Source: CAYFZR01 sp046760505 [NCBI: Candidatus Hydrothermarchaeota archaeon]
GTDB lineage: Archaea > CAYFZR01
Assembly (NCBI GenBank): GCA_046760505.1
Contig: JBHIEG010000039.1
Location: 1 to 13,252 of the forward strand
Direction of reading: 5' to 3'
DNA: 13,252 bases
Below, piece after piece: positions 1 to 13,252 of the stretch. Under the pieces are notes generated by a model. It was not told the DNA's origin. It made no database searches and saw nothing but the letters and a program-made list of their open reading frames with translations. The translations under genes were made by a program, and so were the position numbers. Positions within the stretch are counted from its first letter, which is position 1. Each line of letters starts with the position of its first letter.

Positions 1-75
1 GGCTCATGTAAAAGTACTCATTTAGCTTAGTTAATTCTCATTCATTTTTCAGCATCTAAAAGCAGGTGATAAAGA
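1..75. other. Left-edge intergenic stretch
   Basis: A+T-rich sequence downstream of the thioredoxin-like gene. It holds a run of five T at 45-49 on the plus strand, which could end a plus-strand transcript coming from outside the window, and a run of four T on the minus strand just after the thioredoxin-like stop. No gene or clear structure was seen. Confidence 0.4.
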
Positions 76-330: not shown

Positions 331-334
331 TAGT

Positions 335-340
335 TCACCT
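335..340 (-). promoter_or_regulatory. Shine-Dalgarno site of the thioredoxin-like gene
   Basis: AGGTGA on the minus strand, four bases ahead of the ATG at 330. It matches the archaeal anti-SD and fixes the start. Confidence 0.75.
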
Positions 341-352
341 CGCTTGTGATTG

Positions 353-360
353 AAAAAAAA
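353..360 (-). terminator. T8 tract after ppcA
   Basis: Eight consecutive T on the minus strand, 33 bases past the ppcA stop. Poly-T tracts are the usual archaeal termination signal. It lies between the TATA box and the start of the thioredoxin-like gene, so it would end ppcA transcripts just before or at the next transcript's start. Inference from sequence only. Confidence 0.45.
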
Positions 361-366
361 TTCTCT

Positions 367-376
367 TATTTATATC
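367..376 (-). promoter_or_regulatory. TATA box of the thioredoxin-like gene
   Basis: ATATAAATA-type element on the minus strand, about 37-46 bases ahead of the ATG. Transcription would start near 345, giving a short leader that contains the Shine-Dalgarno site. Confidence 0.6.
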
Positions 377-392
377 TTACGAGCACCCAACC

Positions 393-1853
393 TCATCCTA
401 AAAATCTTCTCAAATTTGCCGCTCTCAGAACGTATTCTCCCAGATATTCTTTTTTGACCTTTCTTAATGAACTCAAGATATAACTTGTTATTTCTTCGTG
501 TTCTCCATTGGTTTCGTAATCTGTAAGTTCACCTACTCTTATTTCCTGAGATTTTGGTAATAAACTCAGTGATTCTTGATTAAAATATTTGAGGGCGTCC
601 CTTAAATCATTCTCGAAATTTACATAGGCTTTCTTAACAAATTGGAGATCATTCTCATCTAAAGCGTTCAAACCCAAGATTTCTGGTGGCAAACCTATAG
701 AATACAGAGCAGCAGTAAATTTTATCGCTCTTGGAAGTTTAACCCCTTCAACATCTCTCGAATAACCGAATAAGCCTATATGTAACTTTCTTTTTCTTCT
801 GCTTGGCACATAATTTGCAATCTCGTTGATTACTGGTGCCAAGACCATTATCTGTTTCCTATATTCTTGTGAATATTTCTTAATTATTTCAAGACATATT
901 TCTTCATCTACTTCTTGCGGAGAATTTCTTTTCTTCCTCTGCATCTTTCTTATTGCTTCTCTGACCTCTTCTGGAGGATTGTCATACTTGAATGCGGATT
1001 GAATGGTGAATGTATGGGCGCTTGGATATTCTTTTCCAACCATTTCAACTGTTTGTGGTCTGAGGTTGCCTCTGAACGGGGCTGATCCAACTCCGACGAT
1101 AGGATAAATTTCAACCCCGATTTCCTTTGACAATCTTTCTAACCTTTGGAGAGCAATTTTATTTAGGAGAACTGCGCTAACCAACCCATAATTCAACGCA
1201 GGATCTGACCTTGCTAGGAAAACTCTTTGATACTCTACATTTTTGTCCTCCAGATACTCTTTGGTTATACCATGGGCGTTGAGCATGTGTTCCATGTCTT
1301 CAAAGAGAGGTATAACATTGATTCTTTCTGGCTTAAATTCTCCAATCCATTCAGCTATTGTTATATCTCTCTTTTTTAAAGATTTATTCTGTTTTCCTAC
1401 GACAAAATCACAGTAATACCTGTAAACTCTGTCAATACATCTTGATGAATCAGTCATTGGCAGGATAACTTCAAATATCGGCGGGATATCATCCTTATAG
1501 AATAATTTGGCAGCATCGAATGATCTGGGAATGCTCTCCAATGTTTCCAGTAATATCTTTGCTTCAGATTTTTCTACGCTTGGATTTGGTACCCTCAAAG
1601 TTATGAATATGTCCTTTCCTAATTTCTTGTTCCTGAAAAAGGATTCATACTTTGTCAATAGTTTTTTAACAACGTAGTTGTCCACTTCTTTGCCCTCGCA
1701 ATCCCACATTTGCTCATCGCACCCTAAGTGAGAGAATACATAATATGCTTCCTGTATTTCGTCCTCTCCACCAAGTTCAGTATTTTCCGCAAAGAAAGGA
1801 GGGTTCACGTTATCTGGGTGTTGTGTACTCATACACTTAGGTACCTTTGGCAT
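393..1853 (-). CDS. ppcA: Phosphoenolpyruvate carboxylase, archaeal type
   Basis: Catalyses PEP + bicarbonate to oxaloacetate + phosphate, the anaplerotic entry to the (often incomplete) citrate cycle. The 486-residue length is that of the archaeal family, about half the bacterial/plant enzyme. Family signatures seen are the N-terminal M-S-T-Q-H-P-D-N (residues 8-15), a G-G-E-D-E segment near residue 30, the loop G-S-A-P-F-R-G near residue 255, and F-G-Y-S-R-D-V-E-G with L-P-R-A-I-K-F-T-A-A-L-Y towards residues 360-380. I chose the ATG at 1853 (MPKVPKCMSTQ) because family members begin this way; an in-frame TTG at 1862 would add three residues. A TATA box lies 30-38 bases upstream and there is no Shine-Dalgarno, so the message is probably leaderless or nearly so. 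The promoter is flanked by a 7-base inverted repeat. It supplies oxaloacetate from PEP, complementing the pyruvate synthase genes nearby. Confidence 0.96.
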   Translation of the reverse strand: MPKVPKCMSTQHPDNVNPPFFAENTELGGEDEIQEAYYVFSHLGCDEQMWDCEGKEVDNYVVKKLLTKYESFFRNKKLGKDIFITLRVPNPSVEKSEAKILLETLESIPRSFDAAKLFYKDDIPPIFEVILPMTDSSRCIDRVYRYYCDFVVGKQNKSLKKRDITIAEWIGEFKPERINVIPLFEDMEHMLNAHGITKEYLEDKNVEYQRVFLARSDPALNYGLVSAVLLNKIALQRLERLSKEIGVEIYPIVGVGSAPFRGNLRPQTVEMVGKEYPSAHTFTIQSAFKYDNPPEEVREAIRKMQRKKRNSPQEVDEEICLEIIKKYSQEYRKQIMVLAPVINEIANYVPSRRKRKLHIGLFGYSRDVEGVKLPRAIKFTAALYSIGLPPEILGLNALDENDLQFVKKAYVNFENDLRDALKYFNQESLSLLPKSQEIRVGELTDYETNGEHEEITSYILSSLRKVKKEYLGEYVLRAANLRRFLG

Positions 1854-1869
1854 TTCAATCAATCTTATC

Positions 1870-1910
1870 GGTTATTTTCAATACTTATAAACTTTCAAAA
1901 ATCAATAACC
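1870..1910 (-). promoter_or_regulatory. ppcA promoter: TATA box inside an inverted repeat
   Basis: On the minus strand a TTTATAAGT element (1883-1891) lies 30-38 bases ahead of the ppcA ATG. It is flanked by a perfect 7-base inverted repeat, GGTTATT at 1870-1876 and AATAACC at 1904-1910, one arm between TATA and start and one behind the TATA box. The TATA call is firm. Reading the repeat as an operator is inference. Confidence 0.55.
1897..1901 (-). terminator. T5 tract after tRNA-Trp
   Basis: Five T on the minus strand, 21 bases beyond the tRNA 3' end: a plausible weak terminator for the tRNA transcript, just upstream of the ppcA TATA box. Confidence 0.35.
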
Positions 1911-1921
1911 TAATTTCTTGA

Positions 1922-2041
1922 TGGGGGCACAGGGATTTGAACCCTGGTCCACGGATATCTCCGATCATCGAATAATCTCAGTACTCCAGAGGATTCCAAT
2001 CTCTGGAGTCCGTGATGATAGCCAGGCTACACCATGCCCCC
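1922..2041 (-). tRNA. tRNA-Trp (anticodon CCA) with a 46-base intron
   Basis: On the minus strand the exons fold as a cloverleaf: acceptor GGGGGCA/TGCCCCC, discriminator A at 1922, anticodon stem ACGGA/TCCGT, loop CTCCAGA with anticodon CCA (2004-2006), variable loop GGAC, T arm CAGGG/CCCTG with TTCAAAT. The D stem is short (about three pairs, one G-U). Joining 2003-2041 to 1922-1956 gives 74 nucleotides. CCA is not encoded and must be added. The intron lies between positions 37 and 38, the canonical archaeal site. An archaeal promoter sits upstream. A73 and anticodon CCA agree with tryptophan identity. Confidence 0.95.
1957..2002 (-). ncRNA. tRNA-Trp intron with box D'/C'-like guide for C34 methylation
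   Basis: The splice site is a textbook bulge-helix-bulge: exon CTCC (positions 32-35) pairs with intron GGAG just before the 3' site, the bulges are AG|A and AT|A, and intron GATT pairs with GATC on the inner side. Inside the intron, CTCTGGAGT (1983-1991) is the exact complement of the anticodon-loop region ACTCCAGAG, followed after one base by CTGA (box D', 1978-1981) and, seven bases on, CGATGA (box C'-like, 1965-1970). The fifth base before CTGA pairs with C34, as the box C/D rule requires. Euryarchaeal tRNA-Trp introns are known to carry box C/D RNAs guiding methylation of C34 and U39; here I see only the C34 guide. There is no separate canonical box C, and the C' box has one mismatch. 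Confidence 0.75.
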
Positions 2042-2066
2042 GCGAATCCAAAGAAATCAATTCTCT

Positions 2067-2082
2067 TTTATATAACTTTCGT
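2067..2082 (-). promoter_or_regulatory. tRNA-Trp promoter (TATA box and BRE)
   Basis: On the minus strand CGAAAG (a purine-rich BRE-like hexamer, 2077-2082) precedes TTATATAAAA (2067-2076), centred about 31 bases before the tRNA 5' end. This is the expected spacing for an archaeal stable-RNA promoter. Confidence 0.8.
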
Positions 2083-2114
2083 GAAATTTATCTTATGGTT
2101 TTATTTTATGATTT

Positions 2115-2132
2115 CCACAAGATTGTGGTGAG
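2115..2132 (+). promoter_or_regulatory. Dyad overlapping the Shine-Dalgarno of the PH-domain gene
   Basis: GGTGAG at 2127-2132 sits seven bases ahead of the ATG at 2140 and is a good Shine-Dalgarno. Its first two G also form the end of a perfect dyad CCACAA-GA-TTGTGG (2115-2128). As RNA this would be a short hairpin covering the edge of the ribosome site; as DNA it could be a protein site. The role is inference. Confidence 0.5.
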
Positions 2133-2139
2133 CTAAAAA

Positions 2140-2502
2140 ATGAATGATGAAAGATTGTTGGAGGTAAGAGCATCTTGGTGGAATTTCTTTTGGCACATAG
2201 CCTTCGCTTGGTTAATCATCCCGCTTGTTGTTGCCCTATGGAAGCGCGCTTCTCTCGTTTTTCGTGTCTATGAGGATAGAATTGTTCTTGAGAGGGGAGT
2301 TCTCTCGAAAGAAATAAAAGAGATATTCATTACGGACATTCGCACAATCGATGTAAGGCAGAGTTTCATCCAAAGGATTTTTAACATAGGTGACTTAATG
2401 ATCGCAACATCTGGAACATCAGGGTACGAAAGCATTGCATATGGTTTACCAGATCCAAAGGGCATCAAGGACGTGATCATAGCGCAACGCAGGAGTAAGT
2501 AG
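2140..2502 (+). CDS. Membrane-anchored bacterial-type PH domain protein (bPH2/YdbT-like)
   Basis: A 120-residue protein with one hydrophobic segment (about residues 16-34), preceded by the aromatic run W-W-N-F-F-W-H, followed by a pleckstrin-homology-like domain (about 37-116). Features of the bPH2 family are the strand pair around R-I-V-L-E-R-G-V-L (47-55), the D-I-R-T-I-D-V-R-Q-S stretch followed by R-I-F-N-I-G-D-L near residues 78-86, and D-P-K-G-I near the end. Family members usually carry two membrane helices and often repeat the domain; this copy is single and minimal. ATG 2140 is supported by GGTGAG upstream. It runs towards the SHOCT-like gene, with 43 bases between the stops. The biochemical function of the family is poorly known; a membrane-surface or envelope role is a guess. 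No cysteines or catalytic residues are evident. Confidence 0.8.
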   Translation: MNDERLLEVRASWWNFFWHIAFAWLIIPLVVALWKRASLVFRVYEDRIVLERGVLSKEIKEIFITDIRTIDVRQSFIQRIFNIGDLMIATSGTSGYESIAYGLPDPKGIKDVIIAQRRSK

Positions 2503-2545
2503 ATTAATTTATAGAGATAATAACCTATAGGGAACTCTATAAAGT
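2503..2545. other. Convergent intergenic spacer with small inverted repeats
   Basis: The 43 bases between two converging stops contain TATAG (2526-2530) and CTATA (2537-2541) as a 5-base inverted repeat. At the right edge, overlapping the end of the minus gene, is the perfect 13-base dyad AGCATT-T-AATGCT (2548-2560). These may help 3'-end formation on both strands; no long T tract is present. Confidence 0.35.
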
Positions 2546-3190
2546 CTAGCATTTAATGCTCTTCATTATCTCGAGTATTTTTTCGCTTTGGGGATAACCA
2601 ACTGCGTAATGAATCTTTTTTTCACAAACCCAAAACAAAGAGTAACCTTCTCTACCATTTTCAAAAACAACCTTGGAGAGGGTAGCATTCTTTCCTTCTT
2701 TAAAGATCAAAGTAGAGTTTAACTCTTCTTTTATGTCCAGATATCCAGCTAACCTGCTCTTGAAAATTTCCGGGTTATCGATGATGTTCATGGACACCTC
2801 GGTTATTGAGCTGTTGTGATTCGAAATTTTAAGAATTCTAATGCCGTAAAAATCTGTTTTAGCCATCCTCACACTCCAATCTTTCGGAACTATAACGTAA
2901 TTGTCCGGATTTTTTACATCACCTATTTTAGGATTTAGGTAAAAAATTAGGGAAATTGACGCAATACAAAATAGGATTATCATTCCAAAGAAGAAGAAAG
3001 AAAGAATCCTTATCCAGTTTCTTTTTTCTTTAAAAAGAACTTTTGGTCTTTCATAGGAATTTTCTTCGATTCCTAGTTTATCTAGGATCTCCCTTCTCCT
3101 TCTTTCATATTCCTCATCAGAGATCTTGCCTAGTTCATAGTACGTCGTTAGTTGATCTAGTTCCATCCTTAATCTTTCTTCTTCTTCCAT
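2546..3190 (-). CDS. SHOCT-like membrane protein with an outer C-terminal domain
   Basis: A 214-residue protein of unknown function with three visible parts. Residues 9-40 resemble a SHOCT module (L-x-x-L-x-x-x-Y-E-x-G-K-I-S-D-E-E-Y followed by a basic helix ending L-D-K-L-G). Residues 60-85 form a single membrane helix after a basic stretch. Residues 95-214 are a polar domain that begins Y-V-I-V-P-K-D-W-S and ends I-M-K-S-I-K-C, a pattern like PsbP/DUF1795-type domains (tentative). This domain has three N-x-S/T sequons (N126, N158, N168) and two cysteines (C189, C214) able to form a disulfide, consistent with it lying outside the cell and the SHOCT end inside. The ATG at 3190 has no Shine-Dalgarno, but a TATA box lies 25-32 bases upstream, so translation is probably leaderless. 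SHOCT modules are more often C-terminal; here it is N-terminal. Topology is inferred. Confidence 0.75.
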   Translation of the reverse strand: MEEEERLRMELDQLTTYYELGKISDEEYERRRREILDKLGIEENSYERPKVLFKEKRNWIRILSFFFFGMIILFCIASISLIFYLNPKIGDVKNPDNYVIVPKDWSVRMAKTDFYGIRILKISNHNSSITEVSMNIIDNPEIFKSRLAGYLDIKEELNSTLIFKEGKNATLSKVVFENGREGYSLFWVCEKKIHYAVGYPQSEKILEIMKSIKC

Positions 3191-3212
3191 GAAATTAGAA
3201 TGTGCACAATTA

Positions 3213-3222
3213 GTATAAATAA
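3213..3222 (-). promoter_or_regulatory. TATA box of the SHOCT-like gene
   Basis: ATTATTTATA on the minus strand, about 23-32 bases before the ATG at 3190, which suits a leaderless start. An 8-base palindrome TGTGCACA (3201-3208) lies between it and the start. Confidence 0.5.
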
Positions 3223-3239
3223 TATGATCCAGACTTAAG

Positions 3240-3263
3240 TATCACTTTTATAATAGAGTGATA
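3240..3263 (+). promoter_or_regulatory. por operon promoter: TATA box within a 24-base perfect dyad
   Basis: TATCACT (3240-3246) and AGTGATA (3257-3263) are perfect inverted arms around a 10-base spacer containing TTTATAATA (3247-3255), the only good TATA box before porG. Transcription would start near 3276, leaving a leader of about 50 bases up to the porG ATG. A protein binding this dyad would compete with TBP, so it looks like a repressor operator. The sequence is certain, the role inferred. Confidence 0.65.
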
Positions 3264-3310
3264 AATGAGTAATGGATTGTGGAGGAGTAAGTTAAAGAAA
3301 CAGGTTAAAA

Positions 3311-3316
3311 AGGTGA
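3311..3316 (+). promoter_or_regulatory. Shine-Dalgarno deciding the porG start
   Basis: AGGTGA, eight bases ahead of ATG 3325. It favours this start over the in-frame ATG at 3265, which lies upstream of the expected transcription start. Confidence 0.75.
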
Positions 3317-3324
3317 AGGACGCC

Positions 3325-3849
3325 ATGATAGAGTTAAGGTTTCATGGGAGAGGAGGACAAGGGGCTGTAACCGCTGCTTCACTTTTGGTTTCCGCAGCCA
3401 TTGAAGAGGGAAGATATGCACAAGCGGTACCTAGTTTCGGACCAGAGAGGAGAGGTGCTCCGGTAGAAAGCTATGTGCGCATTTCAGACGAACCTATACT
3501 CGCAAGATACGATGTTTTGGAACCTGAGTACGTAATAGTACTTGATCCCACCTTGCTGAACGTTGTAGATTATAGGAAGGGATTAAAGGAAGGTGGAATG
3601 CCTATATTAAACCTTCCTACAAGACCCAATGAAAAAGGGGTTGCATGGGTAAATGCTACCGATCTTGCCAACGAGATTCTCGGAAAACCCATAACAAATA
3701 CGGCCATGTTAGGTGCTTTACTAAAGGTAAAGCGTCTTGTCAATTCTAGATCCTTGAGAAAGGCCATAAAGGACCAGTTTCCTGGTAAACTTGGCGAAAA
3801 AAATTGTAATTTAATAAGAAAAGCCTATAAGGAGACTGAAATACTATGA
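3325..3849 (+). CDS. porG: Pyruvate:ferredoxin oxidoreductase, gamma subunit
   Basis: Gamma subunit (also called PorC) of the four-subunit enzyme that interconverts pyruvate + CoA and acetyl-CoA + CO2 using ferredoxin, in the cytoplasm. The 174-residue protein opens with M-I-E-L-R-F-H-G-R-G-G-Q-G (G-R-G-G-Q-G at 8-13), the family signature, and has the conserved F-G-P-E-R-R-G-A-P-V segment near residue 40-50, which belongs to the CoA-handling domain. I chose ATG 3325 because it gives the normal family N-terminus and has AGGTGA eight bases upstream; an ATG at 3265 would add 20 basic residues not typical of the family. Its stop overlaps the porD start (ATGA). First gene of a por operon in the order gamma-delta-alpha-beta. 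Gamma subunits can be shared among 2-oxoacid oxidoreductases, but only one alpha/beta pair is present here. Confidence 0.93.
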   Translation: MIELRFHGRGGQGAVTAASLLVSAAIEEGRYAQAVPSFGPERRGAPVESYVRISDEPILARYDVLEPEYVIVLDPTLLNVVDYRKGLKEGGMPILNLPTRPNEKGVAWVNATDLANEILGKPITNTAMLGALLKVKRLVNSRSLRKAIKDQFPGKLGEKNCNLIRKAYKETEIL

Positions 3850-4127
3850 GTTGGAGAGAATTGCCAATTGGTGCTGTAATAAAGGGAGGAGCAACATCTT
3901 TGGTAAATAAGACAGGTTCTTGGAGAACAATGCGTCCGGTAATTATGTACGATAAATGCACAGACTGCGGTATATGCTGGCTTTACTGTCCTGATTCTGC
4001 CATAAGAAAAACAGAAAAGGGAAATTATGAAATAGACTACGAGTACTGCAAAGGATGTCAAATTTGCGCTGCAGAATGTCGTGTTGGCGCAATAGAAACT
4101 GTTGCGGAGGAATATAAAAGTGATTAA
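3846..4127 (+). CDS. porD: Pyruvate:ferredoxin oxidoreductase, delta (ferredoxin-like) subunit
   Basis: A 93-residue subunit with two [4Fe-4S] binding motifs: C38, C41, C44, C48-P and C68, C71, C74, C78. It carries electrons from the TPP/cluster centre of the alpha-beta pair to external ferredoxin. The N-terminal 30 residues (W-R-E-L-P-I-G-A-V, G-S-W-R-T-M-R-P) match the usual delta-subunit lead-in. The second cluster ends C78-R where most ferredoxin motifs have C-P. All eight ligands are present, so both clusters should form. Start and stop overlap the neighbouring genes (4 bases with porG, 8 with porA), suggesting translational coupling and equal stoichiometry. Confidence 0.93.
   Translation: MSWRELPIGAVIKGGATSLVNKTGSWRTMRPVIMYDKCTDCGICWLYCPDSAIRKTEKGNYEIDYEYCKGCQICAAECRVGAIETVAEEYKSD
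4106..4110 (+). promoter_or_regulatory. Shine-Dalgarno deciding the porA GTG start
   Basis: GGAGG inside the end of porD, nine bases ahead of GTG 4120. It supports GTG 4120 over the in-frame TTG at 4102. Confidence 0.7.
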
Positions 4128-5241
4128 GCCATTGACAGGTAATTATGCAGTAGCAGAAGCCGTCAAACTCTGTGATGTAGATGTTATCGCTGCCTACCCT
4201 ATAACACCATCTACCCAGATGGTAGAGAGGATTTCAGAAATGGTGGCAAATGGAGAAATTGATGCTGAATTCATACCTGTAGAATCCGAACACAGTGCGA
4301 TGAGCGCCTGCATAGGGGCTTCTTCAACTGGTGCGAGAGTATTCACTGGAACCGCTTCTCAGGGTCTTGCATTGATGCACGAAATGCTATTCGTTGCCTC
4401 GGGAATGAGACTCCCGATCGTTATGGGGGTTGGAAACAGGGCACTTTCTGCGCCACTTAGCATTTGGTGCGACCATAATGATACTTTGGCTCAAAGAGAT
4501 TCCGGATGGATACAATTTTATGCTGAGAACTCTCAAGAGGCTCTAGATCTTATATTCATAGCGTATAGAACTGCTGAGCATCATGAGGTGCAGTTGCCTG
4601 CTATGGTCTGTTTAGATGGATTCATACTCACTCACACGGTAGATAGGGTAAATGTACCTGAAAAAGAACTGGTTGATTCTTTCTTGCCCCCAAGAGATCC
4701 TATATATACGGTAAATCCTGAAGTCCCAACCACTATGGGTGCGTATGCGTTTCCAAGCCATTACTTTGAGTTCAGGAGGCAGCAGGAGGAAGGAATGAGA
4801 AATGCAAAGAAATTGCTTCCAGAATTTACCAAAGAGTTCCTAAAAATATTTGAGAGAAAATACGGATTCTTTGAGATTCTAAATCCAGAGGCAGAAACTT
4901 TCTTTTTTGCAATGGGTTCCTCATGCACGACAATGAAAGGCTTAATTCAGGGGAAGGATGATCTCGGATTGTTAAAGTTAACAGTTTTCAGACCTTTTCC
5001 CTATGAGGAACTGGAGAAGGCTCTAAAAAGCGCTGAAAGGGTGATAGTAGTGGATAGAGATATTGCACCAGGAGCACAAGGTGCCATTCTATATGGAGAG
5101 GTAAGGAATGCACTGTACGAGACAGGAGTAGATGTTATCAACGTGATAACAGGCCTAGGTGGAAGAGACATTAGACCTGATATACTTGAAAAGGCGCTCA
5201 AATTGGAAAAAGGAGTACACTTTTTGGGGTTGAGAGAATGA
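4120..5241 (+). CDS. porA: Pyruvate:ferredoxin oxidoreductase, alpha subunit
   Basis: The 373-residue alpha subunit carries the pyrimidine-binding half of the thiamine diphosphate site. The family lead-in L-T-G-N-Y-A-V-A-E-A-V-K is followed by Y-P-I-T-P-S-T-Q (26-33), the conserved glutamate of E-S-E-H-S-A (E57), G-T-A-S-Q-G-L (77-83), and R-A-L-S-A-P-L-S-I-W with D-S-G-W-I-Q-F-Y, which resemble PorA of pyruvate enzymes more than 2-oxoglutarate ones. The C-terminal domain has F-R-P-F-P and G-L-G-G-R-D-I. The start is GTG 4120, preceded by GGAGG; an upstream in-frame TTG (4102) would add six residues and lacks support. It overlaps porD by 8 bases and porB by 4. Pyruvate as substrate is inferred from sequence resemblance; 2-oxoisovalerate is the main alternative. 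Confidence 0.93.
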   Translation: MIKPLTGNYAVAEAVKLCDVDVIAAYPITPSTQMVERISEMVANGEIDAEFIPVESEHSAMSACIGASSTGARVFTGTASQGLALMHEMLFVASGMRLPIVMGVGNRALSAPLSIWCDHNDTLAQRDSGWIQFYAENSQEALDLIFIAYRTAEHHEVQLPAMVCLDGFILTHTVDRVNVPEKELVDSFLPPRDPIYTVNPEVPTTMGAYAFPSHYFEFRRQQEEGMRNAKKLLPEFTKEFLKIFERKYGFFEILNPEAETFFFAMGSSCTTMKGLIQGKDDLGLLKLTVFRPFPYEELEKALKSAERVIVVDRDIAPGAQGAILYGEVRNALYETGVDVINVITGLGGRDIRPDILEKALKLEKGVHFLGLRE

Positions 5242-6143
5242 AGATGTCTGAAATTCCATTGGAAGAATACTTTGCAAAGGGACATAGAGCCTGCCAAGGC
5301 TGTGGGGTAACTATCGCAGTTAGGCTTGCAATGAAGGTAATCGGGAAAAATTCCATCATTCCCTGCGCCACAAGTTGTTTAGAGATTGTATCCACGCCCT
5401 TTCCTGAAACTGCATGGGAAGTTCCATGGATTCATGCAGCCTTTGAATGTGCAGCCGCTGTTTCTTCAGGCATAACAAGAGGCATAGATGTCTTGATGAG
5501 AAAGGGAAAATGGAAGGGTGAAAAACCTAAAATCGTTGCCTTTGCGGGAGATGGAGGTACTTTTGACATTGGGCTTCAAGCTCTTTCCGGCTCATTAGAG
5601 AGAGGAGACGACTTCACATACATTTGTCTGGACAACGAGGCTTATATGAACACAGGGATTCAAAGATCCGGTGGTACCCCCTATGGGGCTTGGACCACGA
5701 CAAGTCCGCCGGGAAAATTGAAGATAGGCAAGGAAGAGTGGAAAAAAGATCTCGCTGCAATCGTAGCTGCGCATCATATACCCTACCTCGCTACCGCAGG
5801 TATAGCACAACCAATGGATCTCCTCACCAAGGTAAAGAAAGCAGTTGAAACGGAAGGACCGAGTTTCATACACATTCAATGCCCATGTCCAACGGGATGG
5901 AGATTTGAACCACATCAAACCGTTATTATAGCCAGAATGGCTGTTCAGACAGGAATGTGGGTCTTGTACGAAGTAGTGAACGGCGAGATGAATCTAACTT
6001 ATCACATAAGATCTAGGAGACCGGTTAAAGATTATTTGAGGGCTCAGGGAAGGTTTAAGCATCTCTCAGATGAGGATATAAACTACATCGATGAGATCGT
6101 AGAGAGAAGATACAAAGAGTTATCAGAGAAGAGACTTATATAA
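5238..6143 (+). CDS. porB: Pyruvate:ferredoxin oxidoreductase, beta subunit
   Basis: The 301-residue beta subunit holds the diphosphate-binding half of the TPP site and one [4Fe-4S] cluster. TPP motif: G104-D-G-G with N133 about 30 residues later (D-N-E-A-Y-M-N-T-G-I-Q). Cluster ligands by family pattern: C19 and C22 (A-C-Q-G-C-G), C47, and C217 in C-P-T-G-W. The C-terminal region (A-V-Q-T-G-M-W-V-L-Y-E-V, then R-P-V-K-D-Y-L-R-A-Q-G-R-F) is typical of PorB. The start ATG overlaps the porA stop. With porA, porG and porD it completes the enzyme. Its last 21 bases overlap the 3' end of the radical SAM gene on the other strand, so the two transcripts must run into each other. Confidence 0.94.
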   Translation: MKMSEIPLEEYFAKGHRACQGCGVTIAVRLAMKVIGKNSIIPCATSCLEIVSTPFPETAWEVPWIHAAFECAAAVSSGITRGIDVLMRKGKWKGEKPKIVAFAGDGGTFDIGLQALSGSLERGDDFTYICLDNEAYMNTGIQRSGGTPYGAWTTTSPPGKLKIGKEEWKKDLAAIVAAHHIPYLATAGIAQPMDLLTKVKKAVETEGPSFIHIQCPCPTGWRFEPHQTVIIARMAVQTGMWVLYEVVNGEMNLTYHIRSRRPVKDYLRAQGRFKHLSDEDINYIDEIVERRYKELSEKRLI

Positions 6144-7229
6144 ACCCAGAAGGTGGAGATTCCCCACGTGGACGTTATTTAAATATTTCTTAGAAGTCTC
6201 CAGACATTTCTTAACCTGCGAGAATGGAGTAACAGATAGATCCTTCATGTAAAATTGAGGGTGAAACACAAGAAGACTGTAAGGTATATCTCGATCAAGG
6301 TCTGATATGAATCTTGCAATACCCTCCACTTCCTTTTCATCTACGTATCCTGGCACAAGTAAAGTCGTTGCAGTGAGCAGTGGAACCTCCTTTCTTTCTT
6401 CATAGAAGTTGTGGTATATCATCTCGAAGTTTTTGTAGGCCTCTTCGTTAGAAACACCTGATAAAGCAAGACTTAGGGTAGGGGAAAAGGTTTTTAGATC
6501 AAACTTGATAATACCTCCACTCTCCAATGAGATTTTGGCTAATTTTTTCACCAAATTTTTGTTACCACAACCATTCCATTCCATACAAATTCTTACTAGT
6601 CTATCAGCCTCTTCTAAAATCTTCCTAGATGCTCTAATTACAAAAGGAAGCTGAGGCTCAGGAGAGCCCCCAAAATAACAGACACAACTTATTTTACCGT
6701 TACTCTTAATTTTATGAGTAAAATCGGATATATCGACCAGTTGGGAGTTTTCCAAATTTTTATGAGAGTAATTTTGACAGAACAGGCAACTGAAATTACA
6801 TCCATAGAAAAAAACAGCGTAATTATAGTATCCTAGCTCGCCGGATTTTCTGTAACTGTACTTTGGATATCCTCTTCCAGTTGCAGGACAGAACCATGCA
6901 GCGCAGCAATTAGTTATGTGTGGATCCAGATACGAGTACAGGAGAGCCCTATTCCCGCTTACTTCTGAGTGGAATTTCCCATTCTTGTTCCATCTGAGTC
7001 CACAGTATCCTCTCTTCCCTTCACTGATCCTGCATTTATTAGAGCATAAATTGCAAGATATTCCTTTTTCTCTTGGAGGCATTATTGGGAGATCGTATGG
7101 AAGCCTTGCATTTTGATGACTCTCTATTATGTAAGGAAGTGCTTCTTCACTTGATCGGATACAATCAGCACATATGCCCAGAATTTTAGAAACACTAACT
7201 TCTCTGCCGCATATTCGACATCTTCTCAT
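6123..7229 (-). CDS. Radical SAM protein, AmrS/PflA-activase group, with N-terminal zinc ribbon
   Basis: A 368-residue radical SAM protein of the COG1180 kind. The cluster motif is C144-x3-C148-x2-C151 in G-C-N-F-S-C-L-F-C-Q-N, followed by a G-G-S-P-E-P segment that takes the place of the usual SAM-binding G-G-E/P motif. The C-terminal half has K-F-D-L-K, L-V-P-G-Y-V-D-E-K-E-V and F-H-P-Q-F-Y-M-K-D, shared with AmrS-type proteins. Ahead of the core lie a CxxC-CxxC ribbon (C4, C7, C20, C23) and a second cysteine cluster (C59, C62, C66, C76 with G-Y-C-G-L-R) common in this group. The other AmmeMemoRadiSam partners are not in the window, and the substrate is unknown. It follows nfeD by 15 bases on the same strand, probably co-transcribed. 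A weak AAGGA lies about 10 bases before the ATG. It should not be called a pyruvate formate-lyase activase without a partner lyase. Confidence 0.82.
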   Translation of the reverse strand: MRRCRICGREVSVSKILGICADCIRSSEEALPYIIESHQNARLPYDLPIMPPREKGISCNLCSNKCRISEGKRGYCGLRWNKNGKFHSEVSGNRALLYSYLDPHITNCCAAWFCPATGRGYPKYSYRKSGELGYYNYAVFFYGCNFSCLFCQNYSHKNLENSQLVDISDFTHKIKSNGKISCVCYFGGSPEPQLPFVIRASRKILEEADRLVRICMEWNGCGNKNLVKKLAKISLESGGIIKFDLKTFSPTLSLALSGVSNEEAYKNFEMIYHNFYEERKEVPLLTATTLLVPGYVDEKEVEGIARFISDLDRDIPYSLLVFHPQFYMKDLSVTPFSQVKKCLETSKKYLNNVHVGNLHLLGLYKSLL

Positions 7230-7244
7230 GGATTAATTTTCCTT

Positions 7245-8510
7245 TCAATCACTTAAAGACCTTTGCCTTCTTACGTATAGCCTAAGTCCCTTGATATCTT
7301 CTACGACAACAGGAGTATCTTTTTCTATATCCCCCTCTAGGGATATGGCTTTCCAAATTTCTCCATGAATCTTGACCTCGCCCTCTGGTTTCAGTGGGGT
7401 TATGGTGATTCCTTCAAGCCCAACCATTCCCTCTCTTCCAGTAGTAGGTTTTCTTTTGAATGTTCTTATTACCGCTCCCAAAACAAGGATAAAGAAGCCG
7501 GCCGTTACAATTACGCTGGCCAATATCAAGTTGAAGGATACTTTGATGAATGGTTCTTTTTCTACATTAGGTAGTAACAAAGAACCCAGTATTAGAGATA
7601 TTATGCCCCCTACGGTTAAAGCACCGTAGGTAGGTGTGAGGAGTTCTGCAATGAATAAAATCAACGCAAAGATTATTAACGCTATTCCAGCCTTGTTCAT
7701 GCTTAAAACATTAAAGGACCATAGGGCTAGAATTATGCATAAACCGCCAAGAACTCCGGGTATCGTAGCACCAGGATTTGAAAGCTCTAATATTATACCA
7801 TAGATTCCTATCATAAAGAGTACGTATGCCACGTTTGGATTCGATAGGGTGTGGAGAATTTGTTGGCGCAGAGTCATCTCCTTGTACGTTAATCTTAGAT
7901 CTTTGGTGCTCAAGGTAATGTTCTCACCCTTTACACTAACATTTCTGTTATCTATCTTCTCTAATAAGACAGTTGTATTATCAGCGATTAATTCTATTAC
8001 GTTGAATTTTAATGCTTCTTCTGGAGTCGCAGACATGGATTTCCTTACTGCATACTCTGCCCAAGTGACGTTTCTGTGGTGTCTTTCTGCAAGAGCCTTC
8101 ATATAGGATGCAAAGTGTTCCGTTATTTTTTCAGGCACCTCTCCCTGACCCGTAATCTCTACTGGATGTGCTGCCCCTATTGTAGTGCCAGGAGCCATGG
8201 CGGCTATATGACTTGACATGAGAATAAATGTTCCCGCTGAAGCGGCTCTCGCGCCTGAAGGATAAACGTAAACTACCACAGGAGAATCGGAAGATTCTAT
8301 ATCTTTTACAATTTCCATCATAGAATCGCCCAATCCTCCAGGCGTATCTATTCTGATTATAATTATGTAATTCTCCTCTAAAAGAGATAGGTGGACGTAT
8401 TCTGCCACGGTAGGATCTATTACTCCTTTTACATCCAGTACTAATCCCTGCTTTCCAAAGACAGGAGCCATTATGAGCAGAATTATAAAGAGTATTAATC
8501 TCCTTCTCAT
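7245..8510 (-). CDS. nfeD: NfeD-type membrane serine protease (1510-N/ClpP-class with C-terminal OB domain)
   Basis: A 421-residue protein with the full long-NfeD layout. Residues 4-19 are a signal peptide or anchor. A ClpP/SppA-like protease domain (about 22-180) has I-D-T-P-G-G (54-59), the nucleophile S91 in A-A-S-A-G-T, and a lysine K128 in P-E-K-I-T that aligns with the Ser-Lys dyad of the Pyrococcus PH1510 protease. About five membrane helices follow (227-242, 250-268, 274-291, 296-313, 326-348), then the NfeD OB-fold domain (about 355-416). Family members are thought to cleave membrane proteins such as stomatin; no stomatin gene is in the window. The ATG has no Shine-Dalgarno but lies about 25 bases from a TATA element, so it is probably leaderless. 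Expected location: membrane, with protease domain outside and OB domain inside. Confidence 0.92.
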   Translation of the reverse strand: MRRRLILFIILLIMAPVFGKQGLVLDVKGVIDPTVAEYVHLSLLEENYIIIIRIDTPGGLGDSMMEIVKDIESSDSPVVVYVYPSGARAASAGTFILMSSHIAAMAPGTTIGAAHPVEITGQGEVPEKITEHFASYMKALAERHHRNVTWAEYAVRKSMSATPEEALKFNVIELIADNTTVLLEKIDNRNVSVKGENITLSTKDLRLTYKEMTLRQQILHTLSNPNVAYVLFMIGIYGIILELSNPGATIPGVLGGLCIILALWSFNVLSMNKAGIALIIFALILFIAELLTPTYGALTVGGIISLILGSLLLPNVEKEPFIKVSFNLILASVIVTAGFFILVLGAVIRTFKRKPTTGREGMVGLEGITITPLKPEGEVKIHGEIWKAISLEGDIEKDTPVVVEDIKGLRLYVRRQRSLSD

Positions 8511-8532
8511 ATAGGAACTTTAAAATATTGAG

Positions 8533-8542
8533 TATATATTTA
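8533..8542. promoter_or_regulatory. Shared TATA element between nfeD and rfcS
   Basis: TATATATTTA lies 16-25 bases ahead of the rfcS ATG and 23-32 bases ahead of the divergent nfeD ATG. Neither start has a Shine-Dalgarno, so leaderless transcription both ways from this nearly palindromic TATA stretch is plausible. A second A/T element at 8520-8528 (TTTAAAATA) could serve one direction instead. Confidence 0.5.
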
Positions 8543-8557
8543 TGTTTAGTGTTCAAA

Positions 8558-9514
8558 ATGGATATCCCTTGGACGGAAAAATACAGACCAAAGCGGCTTT
8601 CTGAAATTGTAGGTCAAGAGGAGATTGTGAAAAGACTGGAAACCTATGTGAAACTAAGAAATCTACCACATTTACTCTTTGCAGGAGGAGCCGGAGTAGG
8701 AAAAACTACATGTGCTTTAGTTCTTGCGAGAGAATTTTTTGGAGAAGAGTGGCACAGAAATTTTTTGGAATTAAATGCAAGCGACGAACGCGGGATAGAT
8801 GTTGTTAGAAATAAAATTAAGGACTTTGCTAGGACCATACCTCTCGGGGAGCACGGTTTCAAGATAATTTTTTTGGACGAGAGCGATGCTTTAACGCCGG
8901 ATGCTCAGAATGCTCTGAGGAGAACAATGGAGAGATATACGGCTACTTGCAGGTTTATTCTTTCCTGTAACTATTCTAGTAAAATTATACCTCCTATTCA
9001 ATCTAGATGCGCCTTGTTTAGGTTTAGGCCACTGAATTCTGAAGATATGACAAAAAGACTTAAATATATAGCGGAAAAAGAAGGAGTAAAGCTTGAAGAT
9101 GGCGCCATTGAAGCGACCATTTACATATCAGAGGGGGATATGAGGATGGCGATAAACATACTGCAAGCAGTATCTTCATTTGGAGAGACAGTAAATGCTG
9201 AGAAGGTTTATGAGATAGCAGGTACGGCGAGACCAGCAGATATAAGAGATATGATCAAACTGGCCTTACAAGGTAATTTTATGGGGGCCAAAGAAAAATT
9301 GGAGAATTTACTCACGAATTACGGAGTTTCAGGTTTAGACGTTATCAAACAAATCCACAAGGAACTCTTCAACCTAGATATACCCGATAAATTGAAGATT
9401 TTGATGCTTGATAAGACTGGAGAATTCGAATTTAGGCTGGTTGAGGGGAGCAATGAGAGAATACAACTTGAGGCATTGCTGGCGAATTTTGCTCTCTTAG
9501 GTAAAGGTGGTTGA
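8558..9514 (+). CDS. rfcS: Replication factor C small subunit (clamp loader)
   Basis: A 318-residue AAA+ ATPase subunit that, with RfcL, loads the PCNA ring onto primed DNA. It opens P-W-T-E-K-Y-R-P-K, the standard RFC start. Walker A is G43-G-A-G-V-G-K-T-T (usual form G-P-P-G-T-G-K-T-T), Walker B is F-L-D-E-S-D (105-110; usually D-E-A-D), sensor 1 is S-C-N-Y-S-S-K (136-142), and the arginine-finger S-R-C is at 149-151. Catalytic lysine, acidic pair and arginine are all kept. No intein is present and the length is normal. I chose ATG 8558 as the family start; an in-frame TTG at 8528 would add ten hydrophobic residues and overlaps the TATA box. It is probably leaderless. Its stop overlaps the next gene by 8 bases. 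No rfcL is in the window. Confidence 0.96.
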   Translation: MDIPWTEKYRPKRLSEIVGQEEIVKRLETYVKLRNLPHLLFAGGAGVGKTTCALVLAREFFGEEWHRNFLELNASDERGIDVVRNKIKDFARTIPLGEHGFKIIFLDESDALTPDAQNALRRTMERYTATCRFILSCNYSSKIIPPIQSRCALFRFRPLNSEDMTKRLKYIAEKEGVKLEDGAIEATIYISEGDMRMAINILQAVSSFGETVNAEKVYEIAGTARPADIRDMIKLALQGNFMGAKEKLENLLTNYGVSGLDVIKQIHKELFNLDIPDKLKILMLDKTGEFEFRLVEGSNERIQLEALLANFALLGKGG

Positions 9515-10421
9515 AATAACAATTTCAGGGCTCTCCTTCTCAAGGGAAATGGTAGAGAAGAACATACTTGTTATGGGGAAGGTAGACTATGAAGCCAGCC
9601 TTAAGATCTACAAAAAGGTGGGAGAAACGGGTTATGACAGGATAGCCTTCATAGGCAAGCGTGACTTGATAAAAACTCTTCCATGCGATTTGAGAATTTC
9701 ATGGCGAGAAATAAAAAATGATTCAATTATCGTTCCCATAGATTACTTTGAGATGAGCGAGTTTGAGTCATTGTATCATGCTGCGGCGGGATACCATCCT
9801 TCTTTTGAGGAATTAAAAATCTTGGAAAGAATACTTAATACTCTAAAAGAAAAGGGAAAAAACAAAGCCCAAGATTTTCAGGATATTGCTGAGGAGATTC
9901 TTGAAAGCGAAGGCGGCAGTGCAATTGAGAAAATAGTAATAAAATTAGTCGGCGGAGCTACGGAACGCTTATCTTGTGTACTGGGTGACGAAAGAGGACT
10001 GGAAAAAATGAAAGGAGACATTGTGATAGACGCTACGGAATTACCGGGTACCGGACAGAGAGCAATGCTTTTTACGCTCGCGAGCAGAATCCCTGCCTCG
10101 AATCTAGTAGTTTTTTTTGATAGGGGTGAAGTGCTCGCAGAAACCTCTCCATTCATAAGTTACGATTATACAATATTCAATGAATTGAGAAGGAGAAATA
10201 TTTTCTTTTTCCTGATCATAGAAAGCCTTGAGGGTATTCCAAAGATAATTCTGGATCAATTCAGGTATCATCTCGTAGGAAGGTTAAAAAAATTTGAGGT
10301 ATCTATACTTAGGGATTTCTACAAAATGGAAGCCAAGTTAGCTGATATAATTCTAGACCTCCCAGAAGGAGTCTTTTTGTTATTCAAGGATAATAAGTTC
10401 ATAGACGTTGTAGAGGTGTAA
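9507..10421 (+). CDS. HerA/FtsK-like protein with degenerate ATPase motifs (pseudo-ATPase)
   Basis: A 304-residue protein I could not name by simple recognition; its motif order suggests a decayed HerA-type RecA-fold ATPase. A strand N-I-L-V-M leads to G24-K-V-D-Y-E-A-S31, which occupies the place and length of the P-loop G-x4-G-K-S but lacks the second G and the K. Near 170-195, G-D-I-V-I-D-A-T-E-L-P and L-F-T-L-A-S-R-I resemble the HerA segment before Walker B; L-V-V-F-F-D-R (200-206) keeps the aspartate but has R where E is usual. Residues 227-260 (L-R-R-R-N-I-F-F-F-L-I-I-E-S-L-E-G-I-P, then G-R-L) resemble the HerA sensor region, with E-S in place of T-Q. There are no membrane segments. 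The start is GTG 9507, overlapping rfcS by 8 bases; an ATG at 9549 preceded by AAGGGAA is possible. The overlap suggests a role tied to the clamp loader, which is inference. Confidence 0.55.
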   Translation: MVEITISGLSFSREMVEKNILVMGKVDYEASLKIYKKVGETGYDRIAFIGKRDLIKTLPCDLRISWREIKNDSIIVPIDYFEMSEFESLYHAAAGYHPSFEELKILERILNTLKEKGKNKAQDFQDIAEEILESEGGSAIEKIVIKLVGGATERLSCVLGDERGLEKMKGDIVIDATELPGTGQRAMLFTLASRIPASNLVVFFDRGEVLAETSPFISYDYTIFNELRRRNIFFFLIIESLEGIPKIILDQFRYHLVGRLKKFEVSILRDFYKMEAKLADIILDLPEGVFLLFKDNKFIDVVEV

Positions 10422-10423
10422 CT

Positions 10424-11353
10424 TTGAGGAGCATCTTATCGGTTTTAGACTACAAGGATGTATTATTTGATCTGCTAAATTTTTCTAAATTTTTGAAAGA
10501 ACACAAGTTTCAGGAATTATTGAAGGGTAAAAGCCTTGGGATGATATTCGAAAAGCCTTCTACTCGCACAAGAGTCTCATTTGAAGTAGCAATGACCCAA
10601 CTAGGTGGTCATGCGCTGAATCTTTCTCCCGGAGATTTACAGCTTGCAAGAGGAGAATCAATAGAGGATACTGCAAGAACCTTAAGCAGATACGTCGATG
10701 CAATAATGATTAGGGCTAAGAAACATGAAAATTTGGAGCTTTTTGCTGAATACTCAGGCGTTCCTGTTATCAACGGCTTAACTGAAAGAGAACATCCATG
10801 CCAGGCTCTTGCAGATCTATTTACAATAAGAGAACACAAAGGTTTCGAATGCAAACTGGTCTGGATCGGAGATGCAAATAATGTTTGCAATTCTTTAATG
10901 CTTGGCTCATCTATTTTAGGCATGGATATGGTAGTTTCGTCCCCTAAGAAATACAAACCAAGACCAGAGATTTTCAATATTGCTAAAAAACTCTCAAAAG
11001 AGACTGGAGGAAAAATAGCGTATATAGAAAACCCAAAAGAAGCAATAAAAGATGCAGACATAGTTTATACAGATGTATGGGTGAGCATGGGAGACGAAGA
11101 AGAATACGAAGATAGAATCATCGCCTTTAAACAATATCAGGTTAATAAAGATCTCTTAGAACATGCTAAGGATGATTACATATTCATGCATTGCCTCCCT
11201 GCTCAGAGGGGACTGGAAGTAACTGACGATATAATCGATGGAAAAAATTCGGTTGTATTCGATCAGGCTGAAAACCGGCTTCATACCCAAAAGGCTTTAT
11301 TAGTATATGTGATGCTTGGAAGGCAGGCAGTAAGGAGGTTTTTGCATGGGTAA
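10424..11353 (+). CDS. argF: Ornithine carbamoyltransferase
   Basis: Transfers the carbamoyl group from carbamoyl phosphate to ornithine to make citrulline (arginine synthesis, cytoplasm). The 309-residue length is typical. Carbamoyl-phosphate site: S46-T-R-T-R50 and H124-P-C-Q127. Ornithine side: D217-V-W-V-S-M-G223, the S-M-G signature separating OTCase from aspartate carbamoyltransferase, and H256-C-L-P-A260. The start is TTG 10424, preceded by GAGGTG (10413-10418), giving the usual M-R-S-I-L-S-V-L-D opening; the gap from the preceding stop is 2 bases. It overlaps leuC by 8 bases. Other transcarbamylases (putrescine, N-acetyl- or succinyl-ornithine) are less likely given the S-M-G and H-C-L-P motifs. 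No other arg genes are present. Confidence 0.94.
   Translation: MRSILSVLDYKDVLFDLLNFSKFLKEHKFQELLKGKSLGMIFEKPSTRTRVSFEVAMTQLGGHALNLSPGDLQLARGESIEDTARTLSRYVDAIMIRAKKHENLELFAEYSGVPVINGLTEREHPCQALADLFTIREHKGFECKLVWIGDANNVCNSLMLGSSILGMDMVVSSPKKYKPRPEIFNIAKKLSKETGGKIAYIENPKEAIKDADIVYTDVWVSMGDEEEYEDRIIAFKQYQVNKDLLEHAKDDYIFMHCLPAQRGLEVTDDIIDGKNSVVFDQAENRLHTQKALLVYVMLGRQAVRRFLHG
11332..11340 (+). promoter_or_regulatory. Strong Shine-Dalgarno of leuC
   Basis: AAGGAGGTT inside the end of argF, five bases ahead of ATG 11346: the longest anti-SD match in the window. It fixes the leuC start rather than the ATG at 11358. Confidence 0.8.
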
Positions 11354-12602
11354 GACGATGGCTGAGAAGATACTTAGCAAAAAATCTGGAAGAGATGCTT
11401 ATGCCGGAGATATAGTGCTCGCCGATGTAGATTTCGCCATGGGTCAAGACGGTACTACTCCTCTGGCGATAAAGTCATTCAACGAAATGAATGGAAAAGA
11501 AGTATGGAATGGGGAAAAAATCGCATTTGTAATCGACCATAGTGCGCCAAGCCCAAACGAAAAAATATCATCTCTCCATAAAATGATGAGAGACTTCGCA
11601 AAAAAAAACAGGATTAGTGTTTACGACATAGGCTCTGGAATATGCCATCAGGTAATTGTAGAAAATGGCCATGTACTTCCTGGCTCACTCGTAGTTGGTG
11701 CAGATTCTCATACTTGCACCTATGGTGCATTAGGAGCCTTTTCCACAGGTATTGGAAGCACTGACATGGCTGCGGTATTCATATCAGGGAAATTATGGTT
11801 TAAGGTACCGGAAACCATAAAGTTTACTATCAACGGAAACTTACAGGCAGGAGTTTACTCAAAGGATCTTATTTTATATTTGATTGGTAAAATGGGAAGC
11901 GATGGTGCAACATATATGGCTTTGGAATTTGAGGGGGACACTATTTCTTCTTTAAGCATGGATGCAAGAATGACTATTTGTAACATGGCAGTTGAGATGG
12001 GTGCCAAGACAGGAATGATAAAGGCGGATGAAAAGACGATAGAATGGCTGAGAAAAAGAACTTCTAAAAATTTTGAGGTTATAGATAGCGATGATGACGG
12101 TAGCTTTAACAAAGTAATAGAAGTTAATGCCTCTGATATTTCTCCTATGATTTCTTGCCCACATGCAGTAGATAACGTTAGACCTGTAGAAGATGTAGAA
12201 GGAATTGAAATAAACCAAGCCTTTTTGGGAACCTGTACCAACGGAAGACTTGAAGATTTAACCATAGCCGCGAAAATATTGAAAGATAAAAAAATAGATG
12301 AAAATGTAAGGATGATCGTTGCTCCAGCCTCGAGAGAGGTATTGATAAGGGGAATGGAAACAGGAATCATCCAAGAACTAATAAGGGCTGGTGCATGTCT
12401 AATATCGCCAGGATGCGGTCCGTGCGTGGGAACGCATCTTGGAATCCCGAGCGATGGAGAGAATGTTATATCTACGGCGAATAGAAACTTTAAGGGAAGA
12501 ATGGGTAACAGCAATTCATTTATATATCTCGCATCTCCCGCAACAGTAGCGATCTCAGCACTTCATGGAGAAATAAGAGATCCGAGAGAGGAGATAAAAT
12601 GA
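11346..12602 (+). CDS. leuC: 3-isopropylmalate/homoaconitate-type dehydratase, large subunit
   Basis: Large subunit of the aconitase-family isomerase of leucine synthesis (2- to 3-isopropylmalate) or of homologous 2-oxoacid elongation (homoaconitase). The 418-residue length fits the archaeal LeuC/HacA branch. Signatures: V-D-F-A-M-G-Q-D-G-T-T (28-38), D-H-S-A-P-S-P-N (64-71), D-S-H-T-C-T-Y-G-A (120-128), F-S-T-G-I-G-S-T-D, and the three [4Fe-4S] ligands C297 (G-T-C-T-N-G-R), C357 and C360 (G-C-G-P-C-V-G). The start at ATG 11346 is supported by a strong Shine-Dalgarno. It overlaps argF by 8 bases and leuD by 4. Sequence alone does not separate isopropylmalate isomerase from homoaconitase in archaea, and no leuA, leuB or lys/aks genes are here to decide. 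Confidence 0.9.
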   Translation: MGKTMAEKILSKKSGRDAYAGDIVLADVDFAMGQDGTTPLAIKSFNEMNGKEVWNGEKIAFVIDHSAPSPNEKISSLHKMMRDFAKKNRISVYDIGSGICHQVIVENGHVLPGSLVVGADSHTCTYGALGAFSTGIGSTDMAAVFISGKLWFKVPETIKFTINGNLQAGVYSKDLILYLIGKMGSDGATYMALEFEGDTISSLSMDARMTICNMAVEMGAKTGMIKADEKTIEWLRKRTSKNFEVIDSDDDGSFNKVIEVNASDISPMISCPHAVDNVRPVEDVEGIEINQAFLGTCTNGRLEDLTIAAKILKDKKIDENVRMIVAPASREVLIRGMETGIIQELIRAGACLISPGCGPCVGTHLGIPSDGENVISTANRNFKGRMGNSNSFIYLASPATVAISALHGEIRDPREEIK

Positions 12603-13099
12603 TTTTTGAAGGAAAGGCTCATAAATTCGGAGACAACATAAATACGGATTACATCATCTCCGGAAAGTATAAGTTCTCTACTCTAGACATGAAAGAACTA
12701 GCAAAACATTTGATGGAGGATATAGACCCTAATTTCTACGAGAAAATCACTCCGGGAGATATAATTGTTGGAGGAAAGAATTTTGGTTGCGGCTCAAGCA
12801 GGGAGCAGGCACCTCTGGTAATAAAGCATGCCAACATTTCATGCGTTATAGCAAAGAGTTTTGCGAGAATATTCTACAGAAATGGAATAAACATAGGACT
12901 TCCTCTGATAGAATGCGAATCCGTTGATGAAATAAGCGATGGAGACTTAATCACTGTAAATTTAGAAGAAGGCAAGATAATAAACAGGACCAAGAATAGA
13001 GAGATTAAAACGAAAAAATTACCAGAATTCATGCTTAGAATACTCAGAGAAGGCGGTCTTGCAGAGCACTTTAAGAAGCATGGCGGTTTTAATTTCTAA
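12599..13099 (+). CDS. leuD: 3-isopropylmalate/homoaconitate-type dehydratase, small subunit
   Basis: The 166-residue small (swivel-domain) subunit partnering the preceding gene. It shows [10 protein letters not shown] (10-19), [12 protein letters not shown] (58-69), [11 protein letters not shown] and N-I-G-L-P-L, all standard in archaeal LeuD/HacB. The loop that sets substrate choice in this family, after the N-T-D segment, reads Y24-K-F-S27. Methanogen homologues are distinguished by motifs here such as Y-L-R-T in homoaconitase, so Y-K-F-S does not give a clear call. The ATG overlaps the leuC stop (ATGA), typical of coupled subunits. Last gene of the operon. Confidence 0.9.
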
Positions 13100-13252
13100 A
13101 GAAGGGGGTCTTAAGTAATTTATACTGAATTTACACTATTTCACCCTACCACCCCCTCTCTACACCCCTTATAAAATAGAGGGTGGAAATAGGGCGGATA
13201 AAAAGTTTAGAACGGAAAAAGAGTAAAAAAGTAGAAAACAACCCTCTTGTCT
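13100..13252. other. Right-edge intergenic region with C-rich hairpin and A-runs
   Basis: No reading frame of note. An imperfect hairpin spans 13144-13194: CCCTA/TAGGG (13144-13148, 13190-13194), CCACCC/GGGTGG (13149-13154, 13181-13186) and TCTA/TAGA (13159-13162, 13177-13180), with bulges AAA and CCTC and a loop of about 14 bases. Three A-runs (13200-13205, 13217-13221, 13226-13231) are T-runs on the minus strand and could terminate a converging gene beyond the window. The hairpin may mark the 3' end of the leu operon transcript. Confidence 0.45.

Follow-up and report, generated by a model that had tools for sequence, protein, structure and literature searches.

What kind of protein is encoded by the open reading frame (ORF) of 304 residues that overlaps rfcS, the gene for the small subunit of the clamp loader, in the archaeon CAYFZR01 sp046760505 (Candidatus Hydrothermarchaeota archaeon)? 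The window, i.e. the whole stretch of DNA that was analysed, comprises the 13,252 nucleotides of contig JBHIEG010000039.1 (assembly GCA_046760505.1, positions 1 to 13,252, forward strand). A preliminary description of this sequence had read the ORF as a HerA-type ATPase that lost its catalytic residues at three sites and that might serve the clamp loader. On balance, we favour the reading that the ORF encodes a stand-alone ATPase-like core that lacks the residues of the ATP site and belongs, within the FtsK-HerA superfamily, to the VirB4/HerA branch. Its product is a probable VirB4/HerA-type pseudo-ATPase whose role is most likely non-catalytic, as a subunit or a scaffold. The two features on which the question turns are the following.

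9507..10421, + strand: ORF of 304 amino acids, probable VirB4/HerA-type pseudo-ATPase core (GTG start, TAA stop; based on codon usage and profile tests)
9507..9514, + strand: overlap of 8 nt between the start of the ORF and the 3' end of rfcS (rfcS stop codon TGA at 9512-9514)

Both the intact frame and the overlap, as given in the preliminary description, were confirmed. Synonymous codon usage was compared with that of the window's other genes and gave a value of 0.056 in the frame of the ORF, as against -0.078 to 0.026 in the other five frames. Because codon usage fits best in this frame, the frame was considered coding, with a value at the low end of the range found for ten other genes of the window (0.054-0.127). 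The overlap suggests translational coupling with rfcS and nothing beyond that.

On visual inspection, the segments of the ORF run parallel to those of archaeal DUF87/VirB4 proteins. Residues 10-304 of the ORF were scored end to end with position-specific profiles, which were home-made and in which the ends were forced to align. The cores used for this purpose were gathered from Altiarchaeota and comprised 51 HerA-like and 10 VirB4-type sequences, the latter making up profile V. The V proteins are of the VirB4 type according to their matches to PF19044 (E 5.5e-24 to 7.8e-29 in 3/3 tested) and, in one case, to PDB 4ag5, a VirB4 structure (E 9e-35). A second profile, W, was built from 6 of the 10 V cores and four Thermoplasmatota proteins (L146-L149); close copies (L057, L061, L062 and L064), a frame without a P-loop (L150) and a short sequence (L151) were omitted from it. 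Scores were compared with those of shuffled sequences and with a null set of real proteins, consisting of 245 pieces of 205 proteins from one Altiarchaeota genome.

With profile V, the ORF reached a Z of 5.1 against shuffles, a score that was attained by 0/1000 of them, and a Z of 4.7 against the real pieces (0/245); when six gap settings were used, none of 300 shuffles and none of the 245 pieces came as high. With profile W, the four gap settings yielded Z values of 5.2, 4.8, 7.2 and 9.0 against shuffles (0/1000 each) and of 4.6, 4.5, 5.9 and 7.5 against real pieces (0/245 each). On the scale of this profile the ORF scored 7.4, within the range of nine intact HerA/DUF87 proteins (5.7-11.5), and the controls, namely 12 of 24 KaiC proteins, 11 RfcS proteins and the first 100 real proteins, scored at most 2.95, 1.14 and 3.61, respectively. 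The likeness is strongest in residues 58-192 (Z 8.9; 0/1000 shuffles, 0/531 real pieces). Residues 10-171 gave a Z of 6.0 (0/1000 shuffles) and residues 172-304 a Z of 3.7 (4/1000 shuffles). Single proteins were also aligned with the ORF: the Thermoplasmatota VirB4 protein L146 gave Z values of 2.4 and 3.7, with 7/500 and 0/500 shuffles and, both times, 1/245 real pieces reaching its score, while the scores of L148 were reached by 44/500 and 121/500 shuffles and those of L149 by 13/500 and 3/500. Judged from these sequence comparisons, the ORF is likely, but not certain, to be homologous to VirB4/HerA-type cores.

The kinship with HerA that the preliminary description had proposed thus holds at the level of the HerA/FtsK superfamily but not for the HerA branch, as the HerA profile gave a Z of only 1.8 and VirB4/TraG fits much better. 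The HerA score was reached by 47/1000 shuffles and 7/245 real pieces, six gap settings gave Z values of 0.5-2.3, and in a further run 35/500 shuffles and 7/158 pieces scored as high as the ORF. In this further run, pieces of L027, L051 and L067 were dropped from the negatives, as these loci hold true family members. Two other cores were tried and rejected: a KaiC-like core (Z -0.4, reached by 650/1000 shuffles) and an AAA+ core of the RfcS type (Z 0.57, 268/1000 shuffles).

The motif strings quoted in the preliminary description were read correctly: GKVDYEAS is found at residues 24-31 and FFDR at residues 203-206, followed by LRRR and IESLEGIP. When the ORF was aligned with the VirB4-type cores at four gap settings, the residues of the nucleotide site were placed as follows.

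9576..9599, + strand: Walker A position, residues 24-31 GKVDYEAS (Ala30 at the Lys position in 2/4 gap settings)
9741..9743, + strand: Asp79, the D of the VirB4 'NPFD' motif, kept (4/4 settings)
10029..10031, + strand: Asp175, the D of the VirB4 'FDI' strand, kept (4/4 settings)
10119..10124, + strand: Asp205-Arg206 at the D-E position of Walker B (2/4 settings, the stricter ones)
10188..10190, + strand: Arg228, the conserved R of '[CG]RK', kept (3/4 settings; Arg229 in the other)
10221..10223, + strand: Glu239 at the position of the motif-III Gln, T-Q (4/4 settings)

GK[ST] does not occur anywhere in the ORF, and the Walker A pattern GxxxxGK[ST] is therefore absent; in the two laxer settings Lys33 or Arg45 comes to lie in the column of the Walker A lysine, with gaps inside the loop. 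The same two settings place Ala211-Glu212 at the Walker B pair, but the Asp205-Arg206 register was also obtained in the alignment with L146 alone and in the MAFFT alignment. If the homology holds, it is firm that the P-loop and the motif-III Gln are lost and probable that the Walker B Glu is. On this condition, the claim of three lost ATPase sites stands for Walker A and for the glutamine; the D-R pair at Walker B depends on the setting. Of the argument from the sensor region, the replacement of Gln by Glu239 stands, but the stretch from Walker B on does not, since it does not exceed chance by itself. Loss of catalysis is, if the homology is real, a fairly safe reading of these residues, and because the P-loop is absent, ATP hydrolysis would not be expected of the product. 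We infer from this one sequence and its coding signal that a non-catalytic role may be under selection.

The ORF lies in a run of genes on the same strand, which consists of rfcS, the ORF, argF and two aconitase-family genes. Its immediate neighbours are these.

8558..9514, + strand: rfcS, clamp-loader small subunit, upstream neighbour (Pfam Rep_fac_C, E 4.5e-25)
10424..11353, + strand: argF-like gene of the ornithine/aspartate carbamoyltransferase (OTCase) family, downstream neighbour (gap of 2 nt after the ORF)

The gene for the large subunit, rfcL, is not next to rfcS, which is followed by the ORF and then by argF. Further upstream, on both strands, are genes for NfeD, a radical-SAM protein and an archaeal-type PEP carboxylase, as well as a four-gene set for an oxoacid:ferredoxin oxidoreductase, whose subunits we assigned by our own reading. 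The window also contains a thioredoxin-fold protein of 84 amino acids with a CPYC motif (79-330, - strand; Thioredoxin_3, E 2e-16), a bPH_2 domain protein of 120 amino acids (2140-2499, + strand; E 9.9e-14) that is overlapped by a shorter ORF on the opposite strand, and a protein of 214 amino acids with a hydrophobic stretch (2549-3190, - strand), whose match to GvpG is weak, below the cut-off and confined to its first 39 residues. No secretion or conjugation genes were found in the window among the 13 other proteins scanned plus rfcS, a Pfam scan of 14 proteins of the window revealed no NurA, and no partner ATPase for the ORF is encoded within the window.

Searches of Pfam, NCBIfam, PHROGs, PADLOC and the PDB sequences gave no credible family for the ORF, and weak matches, such as one to annexin with an E value of 0.014, were taken as chance. 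Exact-peptide scans of genome contigs and viral contigs with the ORF were without result, as was the scan of viral contigs with RfcS peptides, and tblastn against phages yielded one record with an E value of 0.3. A search with RfcS recovered 16 loci. Twelve of these (L002-L013) match over the greater part of the protein, at 56-60%, and come from assemblies labelled as Thermoplasmata, Altiarchaeota or other archaea; with matches at this level only, the lineage of the window therefore has no close relative in that scan. When the ORF was compared by tblastn with these 16 rfcS loci, which belong to other lineages and in 13 cases include 1.2 kb or more of DNA downstream of rfcS, the best E value was 0.27. 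The genes downstream of rfcS there were, as judged by eye, a SufC-like ATPase (L002), a methyltransferase-like (L012) and a regulator-like gene (L007). Of 137 ORFs of 220-420 amino acids from the window and from L001-L025, none but the ORF under study scored above 0 on profile V.

Protein searches with the ORF gave matches in 2/29 Altiarchaeota genomes (E <= 0.1), in 4/389 genomes of the phylum of G004 (E <= 0.01; 0/389 in a second, overlapping draw) and in 3/392 genomes of the phylum of G423 (E <= 0.001), and none in two small genome sets (0/4 and 0/5). All nine matches were judged by eye to be chance: a ThiI-like and a coiled-coil-like protein, an acyl-CoA-ligase-like frame, a citrate-synthase-like protein, a frame with stops, a CheA-like protein and three short exported-looking proteins. 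The orthologue search proposed in the preliminary description was thus negative for the phyla searched, which is a weak negative, as no genome is known to carry an orthologue.

A number of observations weigh against kinship with VirB4-type cores, and most of them are also what speaks for a coincidental likeness, i.e. for an unrelated alpha/beta protein with a similar order of segments whose score was raised by our home-made global test. Residue 10 and the limits of the core were chosen after alignment by eye, the argument depends on one sequence without an orthologue, and Pfam assigned no P-loop family to the ORF. Local searches failed: in an hmmsearch with the V model the ORF was absent among the matches listed (the best ten), and in alignments to VirB4 with free ends its score was not significant, being reached by 34/500 shuffles and by 13/176 pieces, the latter still including those of L027, L051 and L067. 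An hhalign comparison with HerA cores was no better than the nulls (47/94 ORFs and 92/200 shuffles as high). In the MAFFT alignment, for which 120 null proteins were drawn from those long enough, the ORF keeps 13/65 V-invariant columns, as do 68/120 real proteins and 62/120 shuffles, and its mean identity was reached by 23/120 and 29/120, respectively; the identical-residue count of 61.7 was the sole measure reached by 0/120 in both nulls. From Walker B on (residues 198-304) the likeness is not significant alone (Z 1.3; reached by 99/1000 shuffles and 47/701 real pieces), with 341/1000 shuffles reaching the score of this part on profile V, the best path through which bypasses the Walker B strand. 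The register of Walker A and B shifts with the gap cost. Single-sequence AlphaFold2 was uninformative (pLDDT 35.1, pTM 0.26), and Foldseek of this model against the PDB gave no match at E <= 0.001. The succession of strands and helices in the model would be compatible with a VirB4 core, but at a pLDDT of 35 this counts for nothing; a viral scan for VirB4 relatives yielded none and then two loci, too few for an AlphaFold alignment. Still, a coincidence would have to account for scores which, with two profiles, were attained by 0/1000 shuffles (W; 0/300 in the V settings) and by 0/245 real pieces at all settings, for the Z values obtained with the independent L146 alone, and for the failure of KaiC- and RfcS-type proteins to score. 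We therefore regard it as rather improbable, though it deserves some weight.

If the ORF were instead the remnant of a VirB4/HerA gene in decay, still in frame but functionless, this would explain why the catalytic motifs and the N-terminal domain are lost and why the genomes searched yielded no orthologue. However, divergence as deep as this normally brings stops, and the frame runs for 304 codons without one, has codon usage which, with a value low in their range, resembles that of the neighbouring genes, and is tightly coupled between two functional genes; decay thus appears very unlikely. The remaining alternative is the one that the preliminary description had put forward, in which the product is co-translated with RfcS and binds RfcS, RfcL or PCNA as a regulator or scaffold without catalytic activity. 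It draws on the 8-nt overlap on the same strand, adjacency being its sole basis, and is unproven. Since argF follows the ORF after 2 nt, the run is not specific to replication; neither the tblastn comparison with the 16 rfcS loci nor the survey of 137 ORFs with profile V revealed a counterpart, and the RfcS profile does not fit (Z 0.57). In the available part of a study that surveyed the genomic context of replication genes in archaea (PMC2643942), the genes for RFC-s and RFC-l are co-localised in several groups, with Cdc6 in proximity and other replication neighbours, and no HerA/VirB4-type neighbour of RFC is named. Our literature search likewise returned no report of an RFC partner of this type, which does not prove absence. 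The link to the clamp loader is thus not supported, and we consider it quite unlikely.

For a non-catalytic VirB4/HerA-type core, a mechanism can be outlined. The product would adopt a VirB4-like fold, would be translated together with rfcS, and might join or cap a ring formed by an active ATPase of the VirB4 or HerA type whose gene lies outside the window. Dead subunits in other ring ATPases keep their interface and may serve the site of a neighbour. By analogy, the ORF product may retain the ring interface and perhaps lend Arg228, which we take to be a possible trans-acting residue, to the site of the adjoining subunit. Of the possible mechanisms this one seems to us the likeliest, but we offer it tentatively; the term 'arginine finger' does not occur for HerA in the available part of PMC5715905. 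A far bolder version, in which a dedicated non-catalytic subunit co-translated with RfcS ties a DNA-pumping ATPase ring (for import, resection or segregation) to sliding-clamp loading in a lineage of archaea not sampled before, is highly improbable. It would amount to a new kind of RFC-associated factor, for which the present evidence falls short.

Pseudo-ATPases of the FtsK-HerA superfamily are known mostly as full-length copies or domains within secretion machines. A stand-alone archaeal core that has no nucleotide site and is co-translated with a replication gene would be an addition to this list, and its product would be a small protein open to testing.

As a separate observation, a VirB4-type protein was found in 20/29 Altiarchaeota genomes (E <= 1e-100; G001, G003, G010-G016 and G019-G029), with a second copy in G024, G026 and G029. 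Leaving out fragments of 127-273 amino acids, the frames are 497-880 amino acids long, most of them about 750-820, and the protein resembles a conserved chromosomal ATPase with a C-terminal extension.

Among known systems, HerA (PF01935, DUF87), whose partner is NurA, shares the superfamily and the general order of segments with the ORF, but the fit is weaker than to VirB4, and the ORF has neither an N-terminal domain nor a NurA gene among the scanned window proteins. Archaeal VirB4-type ATPases (PF19044, P-loop_TraG; PDB 4ag5) are alike end to end over the core, and the ORF keeps the aspartates of NPFD and FDI as well as an arginine in the [CG]RK region. It differs from them by lacking GK[ST], by Glu in place of the motif-III Gln, by the absence of secretion genes among the scanned window proteins and by the absence of the N-terminal domain: its first core strand is preceded by about 10 residues, as against about 250-530 in the V proteins. 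Dead domains of the VirB4 and FtsK families are already known, namely Rickettsia VirB4b and the third ATPase domain (D3) of EssC, and it is these relatives that lead us to prefer the role of a non-catalytic subunit or scaffold in a ring of the VirB4/HerA type. In VirB4b, the NTP-binding cleft bears seven specific substitutions, and in the available part of the report its authors propose a channel-forming, non-powering role or pseudogenisation (PMC2653234). In EssC, an FtsK-type protein of type VII secretion, D3 lacks ATP-binding motifs in some orthologues, as stated in the part of PMC4925161 that was available. VirB4b is a full-length protein of about 810 amino acids in a known secretion system and D3 is a domain within a larger protein, whereas the ORF is archaeal, consists of the core only and forms a separate gene.
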